Position numbers and translations under genes: made by a program
From: Terriglobia bacterium
Lineage (GTDB): Bacteria > Acidobacteriota > Terriglobia > Terriglobales > Acidobacteriaceae
Length of the DNA stretch: 64,000 bases
Reading direction: 5' to 3'
Assembly: GCA_020073395.1 (NCBI GenBank)
Contig: JAIQFF010000003.1
Coordinates: forward strand, 29,172-93,171
The notes under the pieces: generated by a model
Told to the model about the DNA's origin: nothing
The model's input: only the letters and a program-made list of their open reading frames with translations
Databases searched by the model: none
Part shown: in pieces, positions 6,273 to 40,560 of the stretch
Position numbering within the stretch: the first letter of the stretch is position 1
Layout of the letters: each line of letters starts with the position of its first letter

Positions 6273-7406
6273 ATGAAAGAATTTTTCGTTTCCGACTGCC
6301 TTCGGTTCGAGAACAAGATTATCACTTCCACTTTTGTGGTAGTTTCCCGCCAGGTCAAACCCAAAAAGAGCGGTGAGCCTTACCTGGCTTTCACCCTGGG
6401 CGATCGCAGCGGCCACCTCGAGGCCAAGATGTGGGACAACGTCGAGGACGCCATCGACGCTTGCGATCAGGATGACTTCATCAAGGTCAAGGGCCTGATC
6501 AACAAGTATAAGAACCGGTTCCAGCTGACCATCCACAAGCTACGCCGCATGGGAGCATCGGAGGTCGATTTCGCTGACTACCTCCCTAAAACCACGAAAG
6601 ATATTGGTGAGTTGTGGCAAACCCTGGCGGCCTACGTCGCTACTTTTAAAGATCCTCACCTCAAGGCGCTGGTGGAGGCTTTTATGGCGGATCCGGAAAT
6701 CGCGGAAGCCTACCGCAACGCCCCCGCCGCCAAGACGCTGCATCACGCTTTCATCGGCGGATTGCTTGAGCACGTGGTCTCGCTTTTCAATTCCTGTGAC
6801 CTCATGTGCCGCAATTATCCGCATATCAACCGCGACCTGCTTCTCACCGGCGCCTTCTTTCACGATATCGGCAAGATCCACGAGCTGACCTACAGCCGAT
6901 CGTTTTCCTATACGACGCGCGGGCAGTTGCTGGGACACATGATCATTGAACTGGAGATGCTGCAGGCCAAGCTGCCGCTGGTGGCGGGATTCCCCGAACC
7001 GCTCAAGACGCTGGTCGAGCACCTCATTATCAGCCATCATGGCCAGTATGATTTCGGCTCACCTAAGTTGCCCATGTTCCCCGAGGCGCTCATGCTCCAC
7101 TACCTCGATGATCTCGATTCCAAGATGGAAGCCATGCGTGCCCAGTTTGAGCACGGTGCGGAATCGGACGGCGCCTGGACCGGCTACAATCCGTCGCTGG
7201 GCCGGCCCCTGCTGAACACTGCGAAATTCCTGGCAGAAAAGCCCGAGGAAGACGAGGAAAGACTCGCCGCCGCGCCAGTGGCGGGCACCCCGCCCATGGT
7301 CACCGGCCTGGAGCCGGAGGACCCAGAGAAGGAGAAAGGCCCGCAAAATGAAAATCCTGGCGCCGCCATGACTTCGACTTCTGCGGCGCATGAGGATAAA
7401 ATCTAG
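6273..7406 (+). CDS. 3'-5' exoribonuclease YhaM-like (OB fold + HD domain)
   Basis: KEFFVSDCLRFENKIITSTFVVVSRQVKPKKSGEPYLAFTLGDRSG; HHAFIGGLLEHVVSL; FFHDIGKIHELTY. Confidence 0.88.
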   Translation: MKEFFVSDCLRFENKIITSTFVVVSRQVKPKKSGEPYLAFTLGDRSGHLEAKMWDNVEDAIDACDQDDFIKVKGLINKYKNRFQLTIHKLRRMGASEVDFADYLPKTTKDIGELWQTLAAYVATFKDPHLKALVEAFMADPEIAEAYRNAPAAKTLHHAFIGGLLEHVVSLFNSCDLMCRNYPHINRDLLLTGAFFHDIGKIHELTYSRSFSYTTRGQLLGHMIIELEMLQAKLPLVAGFPEPLKTLVEHLIISHHGQYDFGSPKLPMFPEALMLHYLDDLDSKMEAMRAQFEHGAESDGAWTGYNPSLGRPLLNTAKFLAEKPEEDEERLAAAPVAGTPPMVTGLEPEDPEKEKGPQNENPGAAMTSTSAAHEDKI

Positions 7407-7496
7407 GCACTTGTTAGGGAGCCCTCGTCAGCACCCGGTTGAGAGCATTTGCGCGTAATCCACTTTCCGATTGATCATCCCGTCATGGAGGAAATC

Positions 7497-36585: not shown

Positions 36586-37080
36586 CTAAGGCACGAAGGC
36601 ACAGGTGTGGAATTTGTTTGAATACTCCGGCTGAATTTCGTAACTTTTGGCGTTGAGCGTGACCGGGTTGTACTGGAAGAATGGTTCTTCGCATATATCA
36701 CCGATTTCTTCGCCAAACTCAACCAGTGAATTTAGGGCGAGCCATCCGAAGTTTCCGTTGAGCAGATCGGCAAAGGTGGCCGGCGGATCCGGGTCGGTGA
36801 TGGTTTCGAAAGTCTGTGGGAAAGAACATTGGCGGTCGAATCGACGAGCGCACATTTAGGGCTGGGGGTGGAGACTGAGCATCCATCGACGTTTTGATAG
36901 GGCTCGACGCTGAGCAGCACATGCCCGCGTAATTCAGGCAGGCAAAGGCAAGAGGAAGGCGCAGCGGCCCCGCACTCCATGCGGAGGTGTTCGACGCACC
37001 AGCCCTGCAGCTGCCCTCCAAGTGGTGCAGTTTGAAATCCACAGGGCTGGCAATGCGCTCCAACCTGTGGGAAACTGTCG
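36586..37080 (-). pseudogene. frameshifted secreted protein remnant (HE..EAITDPDP-type)
   Basis: Frame 1 ...CLPELRGHVLLSVEPYQNVDGCSVSTPSPKCALVDSTANVLSH continues in frame 2 as TFETITDPDPPATFADLLNGNFGWLALNSLVEFGEEIGDICEE...YEIQPEYSNKFHTCAFVP; 5' limit uncertain. Confidence 0.6.
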
Positions 37081-37082
37081 GC

Positions 37083-37253
37083 ATGGCAGAAAAACGAACC
37101 AAAGCGGATAAACGGCAGCGCCAAGCCGACAAATTGGAAAAGAAGGCGCGTCACCCACATGCGCAGGGTACGAAAAAGAAGCCCCGCGAGGACTTCAGCC
37201 AAGCCGCTACCCGGATCGTGAAGCAGGCGCCGAAAGCCGAAACAGCCTGGTGA
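37083..37253 (+). CDS. small basic hypothetical protein
   Basis: MAEKRTKADKRQRQADKLEKKARHPHAQGTKKKPREDFSQAATRIVKQAPKAETAW. Confidence 0.45.
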   Translation: MAEKRTKADKRQRQADKLEKKARHPHAQGTKKKPREDFSQAATRIVKQAPKAETAW

Positions 37254-39396: not shown

Positions 39397-39681
39397 GGCG
39401 GGAGAATAGAAACCGAACGAGAGAACACTAACACAGATATGAATCTCCGTCAGTGATGCGCCTCACAGAGCGTAGCCGTAGCCGCCTAGATAGCACCGTC
39501 GCGGGAACATCCGGGTACGGTCTACAACATTGCCGGAGCAGAGTAGGATCTCATATATAGAGACCAGGCCAAACCGCCCATGGGCGGACGCCGGAAGCGC
39601 TAATGTGCCCTGAACGTGCGTCGGGAGCGGCGTTTTTTCCCTCGACTACTGTAAACTAACTCTTGTAGAGGCAGGCTTTTA

Positions 39682-39927
39682 GGGGCGCGTAGCTCAAACG
39701 GATAGAGCATCGGATTTCTAATTCTCGGTAGATTAACCCTAGTTAGGCAGCGAGTTGCTTGTAAGTAGCTTGCTGCCATTTGTTTATAGAGAGTGGAACG
39801 AGGCTTGCTACTCAGCGGTAAATCTGTGAATAACTAGGTCATTTGGACTTAGAATAGATCACAGTTTGACTCACACAAAAGTCCGAGCGAACATCGGAGT
39901 TCAAGTCCGATGAGACCAAGCGCCCCA
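39682..39927 (+). tRNA. interrupted tRNA-Arg(UCU)-like gene: 5' part 39682-39721, insert about 39722-39881, non-canonical 3' part 39882-39927
   Basis: 5' part GGGGCGCGTAGCTCAAACGGATAGAGCATCGGATTTCTAA is a normal tRNA 5' half; 3' part TCCGAGCGAACATCGGAGTTCAAGTCCGATGAGACCAAGCGCCCCA supplies TCCGA (pairs TCGGA), a TTCAA-loop hairpin and GCGCCCC (pairs GGGGCGC). The 3' T-arm geometry is abnormal. Confidence 0.5.
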
Positions 39928-40105
39928 GCCTAGACCCGGACTTTACGGCTGAGACTGCGGACCGGCTTTGTGCATGATGCATGGGCGCTGGAAACTTTTC
40001 CTTCCCATCAGTCACAGAAAGCCCCCGCAATGAGTCGAGCAGGGATAGGTAAAGGATGCGTCGGTGTCCCAAATTTTCTTAGAGCTAGGGCTACTGTTTA
40101 CAGGG

Positions 40106-40423
40106 CTAGGCAGATTTCCGTGCAGGTCTAGTTCCTAGCAAGACCGTTGGCTCACCTCTCAGGTCATCGTACTCGGTCGAGCCGAGTATTTTCAGTTTGA
40201 TGCTCGCGGCGTTGCATCCTTCGATAGCGTCGTCGTTCAGTAGAAAGAACTGATAGTGCTCACCGTACTTCGCACAGAGCTTTGCGTGGTCGGATCGCTC
40301 ATCGTCGCGGTCCGAGATGCCGAGAACGATGGGGCGAGCGCCCGGTGCATGTGGCAAACTCACCCAGAACGGGCCGCCACGGATATATTCGTGCTCAGTC
40401 ACTCCTGCAACAGTCCAAATCAA
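40106..40423 (-). CDS. hypothetical protein
   Basis: Complete ORF; no family recognised. Confidence 0.35.
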   Translation of the reverse strand: MIWTVAGVTEHEYIRGGPFWVSLPHAPGARPIVLGISDRDDERSDHAKLCAKYGEHYQFFLLNDDAIEGCNAASIKLKILGSTEYDDLRGEPTVLLGTRPARKSA

Positions 40424-40560
40424 TGTAATCCTCCTACCGAGGCTACGACCCGATTTAAGCCACTGGCGCGGCGTTGGGCCATCCCCCTTGGGTGCGTCTA
40501 CGTTTAGCGCAGGCGGGCGCGTGGCTTCATGGCGTCGATGCAGCGGGTGAGTTCGTGCAG

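Follow-up and report, generated by a model that had tools for sequence, protein, structure and literature searches.

A displaced 5' fragment of tRNA-Arg(UCU), probably the scar of an integrated mobile element, in a Terriglobia genome

The tRNA-Arg(UCU) 5' half and the segment behind it

The window is the whole stretch of DNA that was analysed, 64,000 nucleotides of a Terriglobia bacterium (G000; assembly GCA_020073395.1, contig JAIQFF010000003.1, referred to as C202). All positions are window positions unless a contig is named. The genome (5.54 Mb, 311 contigs) gave 46 tRNA matches, including an intact tRNA-Arg(UCU) called by ARAGORN at C228:1-77. Window positions 39683-39722 (plus strand) are identical to nt 1-40 of this gene (40/40 against G000:C228:1-40), which is far beyond chance. 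The G at 39682 lies outside the tRNA and precedes its first base. Past the shared 40 nt the intact gene continues with CCGACGG and the window with TCTCGG, and identity thus ends 1 base past the seven-base anticodon loop TTTCTAA. The anticodon loop region at 39716-39722 (plus strand) contains the last shared bases, with the breakpoint after 39722, and is the probable crossover region. The canonical 5' half of the preliminary description (GGGGCGC at 39682, D arm, TCGGA-TTTCTAA ending at 39721) was therefore borne out, being identical over 40 of 40 nt to the intact gene.

Two marks of a displaced tDNA fragment were found: the fragment ends at a known crossover site, the anticodon loop, and the same tRNA gene is complete elsewhere in the genome. 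Such an intact tRNA-Arg(UCU) had been named beforehand as an observation that would speak against a split gene; it was looked for and located at C228:1-77, on a separate contig from the fragment on C202. A D-arm pattern scan of the genome returned no further tRNA fragments besides the window locus.

The segment at 39723-39888 (plus strand) is foreign to the tRNA and is probably an arm of the integrated element. No homologues of the insert beyond chance were found in 100 relatives or in 399 genomes of the class, where four matches with E values of 0.004-0.009 equal the chance expectation. Relatives of the locus were absent from phages and plasmids. In viral contigs, neither the hairpin pattern nor relatives of a 105-aa neighbour protein were detected, and a search for the cut 5' half gave one match, which ARAGORN calls a complete tRNA-Arg. 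On the right side of the fragment, no mobile gene was recognised.

The other elements of the preliminary description were recovered at their places: TCCGA at 39882, CATCGGA-GTTCAAG-TCCGATG at 39892-39912, the spacer AGACCAA and GCGCCCC at 39920-39926. The hairpin had been taken for an abnormal T arm. Here, positions 39889-39910 (plus strand, GAACATCGGAGTTCAAGTCCGA) match the anticodon arm of tRNA-Arg(UCU), GAGCATCGGATTTCTAATCCGA, at 18 of 22 positions, and the best background match to this arm was 16 (approximately 420 segments of 600 nt). By local alignment, 0 of 1,064 background segments reached the score of 39889-39910. The stretch is best taken as a second, decayed copy of the core of the anticodon arm, in direct orientation and 184 bp downstream, and not as a T arm.

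Cut tRNA genes in other genomes

For comparison, 85,462 genomes were scanned for a tRNA-Arg(UCU) 5' half without its own 3' half after it. The scan gave 13 loci, one of them an intron (L120) and 12 of them fragments (L114-L119 and L121-L126, from Acidobacteria, Verrucomicrobia and Planctomycetota). With two more fragments, L080 and L089, the total besides the window is 14 (L084 is the same place as L115), and in all 14 loci the tRNA-Arg 5' half is cut at the anticodon loop. A 5' half standing alone as an integration scar in other genomes, the further observation that had been named against a split gene, was thus looked for and found. L124 carries an intact tRNA-Arg(UCU) as well as the fragment, and the interval between them encodes a 453-aa tyrosine integrase (PF00589, Arm-DNA-bind_3). 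Genes for HsdM and a TraI-like helicase follow two other fragments on the right. Five of the 12 scanned fragments continue with TTC after CTAA, as in the window.

G001, the nearest relative and a member of the same genus, has at the locus syntenic to C228 only nt 31-77 of the tRNA (93.6% identity over 47 nt), followed by approximately 3.3 kb at 80% identity. The fragment, a 3' half of tRNA-Arg(UCU) with its cut in the anticodon loop, was located at L142:3679-3725 (G001:C212), and the intact tRNA-Arg(UCU) of G001 lies on another contig. In this genus, too, the anticodon loop is therefore a point at which the tRNA gene has been split. Contig C16 of G001 is weakly collinear with the window flanks (37021-37222 and 40086-40434, there also approximately 3 kb apart) and has no tRNA in this place, so that synteny is only partly informative on the native position of the gene.

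No integrase was found on C202, and the stretch just upstream of the intact tRNA on C228 falls outside the assembly. Several tRNA genes of the genome have a tyrosine integrase gene within approximately 1 kb. Integrase genes or remnants at this distance from tRNA genes were noted on seven G000 contigs (C33, C52, C59, C63, C93, C109 and C207), and tRNA-targeting elements thus seem common in the genome.

Fold of the locus and searches for an intron

The whole 246 nt (39682-39927) fold better than shuffled sequences (z -5.6 to -6.8), which is the second most extreme value among approximately 520 window segments. The strongest single part is a hairpin of 14 bp at 39746-39777 (plus strand), followed by ATTTGTTTAT and terminator-like in a terminator scan, with z -5.3 for 39730-39785. 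When this hairpin was removed, the insert reached only z -1.1 to -1.4; with both the hairpin and the acceptor complement omitted, z was -2.2. The minimum-energy fold breaks the D arm. Other 5'-half scars fold at z -1.9 to +0.8, and the window locus is an outlier among them. The strong fold derives from one terminator-like hairpin and from pairing with the tRNA half; the remainder is chance-like. The description of a well-folding insert accordingly holds for the named hairpins, the first of which has 14 bp, and for the locus as a whole, but not for the insert once this hairpin is taken away. Elsewhere in the window, an inverted repeat at 1961-2180 (58-nt arms, 93% complementary, 104 nt apart) is the strongest-folding segment (z -10).

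GCGCCCC at 39920-39926 (plus strand) is the exact complement of GGGGCGC, as had been described, but is unconvincing as an acceptor pairing and probably coincidental: 2 of 14 other, unrelated tRNA 5'-half fragments have acceptor complements of seven Watson-Crick pairs at a similar distance. The complement extends outward as AGGCT/AGCCT across a 4-nt bulge, and with the flanks included a closing helix is predicted with a pairing probability of at least 0.84. This helix (AGGCT-GGGGCGC / GCGCCCC-AGCCT) and the z-scores of the whole locus would suit a functional structured RNA gene that had captured a tRNA 5' half. Such a gene is nevertheless very unlikely. No homologue was found in approximately 500 genomes, and hence no covariation; most of the excess fold lies in one terminator-like hairpin; acceptor complements recur by chance; and no sigma-70 promoter-like site was found at the locus. 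It is just as improbable that the 260-nt region encodes a lineage-specific structured RNA that arose from the 5' half stranded at an integration scar, is closed by a long-range helix of 12 bp and serves the host or the element. The unknown tRNA-borne RNA element that had been proposed is, without a homologue, left with the fold.

The position of the insert and the second TCCGA at 39882 would agree with a divergent self-splicing intron that interrupts the anticodon loop of tRNA-Arg(UCU). ARAGORN called no tRNA in the window, nor anything when introns were allowed. Nothing in the window reached Rfam gathering thresholds, and no intron or tRNA model matched 39500-40100 even at E<=10. The insert aligned to the tRNA 3' half at background level, and the halves joined at 39721/39882 were not called a tRNA by ARAGORN. 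L120 (Planctomycetota) served as a control. It resembles the window in an insert of similar size (approximately 216 nt) directly after the anticodon of the same tRNA, but differs in matching the group I model RF00028 (56 bits) and in its canonical 3' exon, both of which the window lacks. The joined exons of L120 were called tRNA-Arg(UCU) by ARAGORN; with introns allowed, a split tRNA was reported, labelled tRNA-Pyl. A group I or group II intron was rejected for the window locus, given that no Rfam model matched at E<=10, there is neither a T arm nor a canonical 3' exon, and no tRNA results from joining the halves. The window locus fails the Rfam and joined-exon tests, both of which the true intron passes, and an intact tRNA-Arg(UCU) copy exists. 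The self-splicing reading of the preliminary description is thereby refuted as far as sequence can do so, and its probability is negligible. The intron of L120 itself (approximately 7215-7437, minus strand, JARGOJ010000144.1) is a compact one of group I, seated in the anticodon loop of a tRNA-Arg(UCU) gene that ARAGORN misses as tRNA-Arg.

Origin of the fragment and comparison with known systems

The best explanation of the locus, with a probability of roughly 0.8, is that a mobile element integrated into tRNA-Arg(UCU) and left the 5' part of the gene behind as a displaced fragment. The anticodon loop is the usual crossover point of tyrosine integrases. An enzyme of this kind would have used the 7 bp of the anticodon loop to recombine the attP of the element with the tRNA gene. 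As the element would have brought its own copy of the 5' half, a complete tRNA-Arg(UCU) would have been rebuilt at its far end, now the start of C228, and the near end would have kept the native 5' half, fused to the arm of the element. As a tRNA the fragment is dead, and a through-transcript would meet the terminator-like hairpin (39746-39787). The decayed second anticodon-arm copy 184 bp downstream may point to an integration that was older or in tandem and was followed by deletion. This origin draws on the fragment with its exact breakpoint, the intact copy, the like scars in other genomes (L124 with integrase and intact tRNA in place), the matching 3'-half fragment in G001, the integrases near other tRNA genes of the genome and the second core copy; the integrase, the identity of the element and the subsequent decay or rearrangement are inferred.

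Against a scar stand the lack of an integrase on C202 and of a recognised mobile gene beside the fragment on its right, the unassembled far end of the element, the missing tRNA on G001 C16 and a fold that is an outlier among scars. The lack of an integrase and the missing tRNA would also fit a tRNA-Arg(UCU) copied in part without any integrase, through slippage during replication, transposition or illegitimate recombination. This origin is unlikely, because the cut coincides with a crossover point, the anticodon loop, that the 14 other fragments share, and one of these has the integrase and the intact tRNA in place. An assembly chimera, in which two loci were joined via the shared 40-nt repeat, is highly improbable. 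C228 does begin exactly 40 nt before the divergence point, as a k=41 graph junction would, but the segments on either side of the repeat (37021-37222 and 40086-40434) are collinear in G001 C16 as well, and such a join would still presuppose a genuine 5' half with TCTCGG after it.

With no integrase on C202, the far end outside the assembly and no tRNA on G001 C16, the history of the locus may include a rearrangement after integration, an integration that was tandem or has decayed, or a partial duplication; the intron reading is revived by none of these. The earlier suggestion of a tRNA disrupted by insertion came close, except that what remains here is only the displaced 5' half. The locus is probably an ordinary scar of the rarer 5'-fragment kind, a new instance of a known phenomenon. 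It also serves as a warning, since by eye a tRNA fragment next to an ordinary hairpin can pass for an intron-split tRNA. The tRNA-Arg(UCU) gene of Acidobacteria, Verrucomicrobia and Planctomycetota joins the sites at which the rarer 5'-fragment integration recurs. In integrations of this kind, the rebuilt tRNA is expected under the promoter of the element, as described for pTN3-like elements (PMC8371274). Such control could make the host dependent on the element.

An intact tDNA together with a displaced fragment is the Islander signature (PMC4383910). Among 3,919 Islander islands, 3,760 have a 3' fragment and 159 a 5' fragment, and 2,083 are anticodon-centred (PMC4383910). Crossover in the anticodon loop and 5' fragments are both documented (PMC4383910, PMC8371274). 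Fragments of tRNA genes have been mistaken for tRNA genes, and one fragment was parted from its intact copy by an inversion (PMC9897764). The window locus shares with the Islander 5'-fragment class (PMC4383910; PMC9897764) the intact tRNA, the displaced fragment of the same gene and the cut at the anticodon loop. It differs in that the fragment and the intact copy lie on separate contigs, that no integrase is next to the fragment and that a second, decayed core copy is present 184 bp away. Also known are integrases that use tRNA 5' halves, and there the integrase promoter drives the rebuilt tRNA (PMC8371274). The pTN3-like integrases (PMC8371274), with attB within the tRNA 5' half, resemble the window locus in having this half as the shared sequence and a tRNA rebuilt at the other end; they differ in being archaeal and in having a known integrase, whereas none was found at the window locus.
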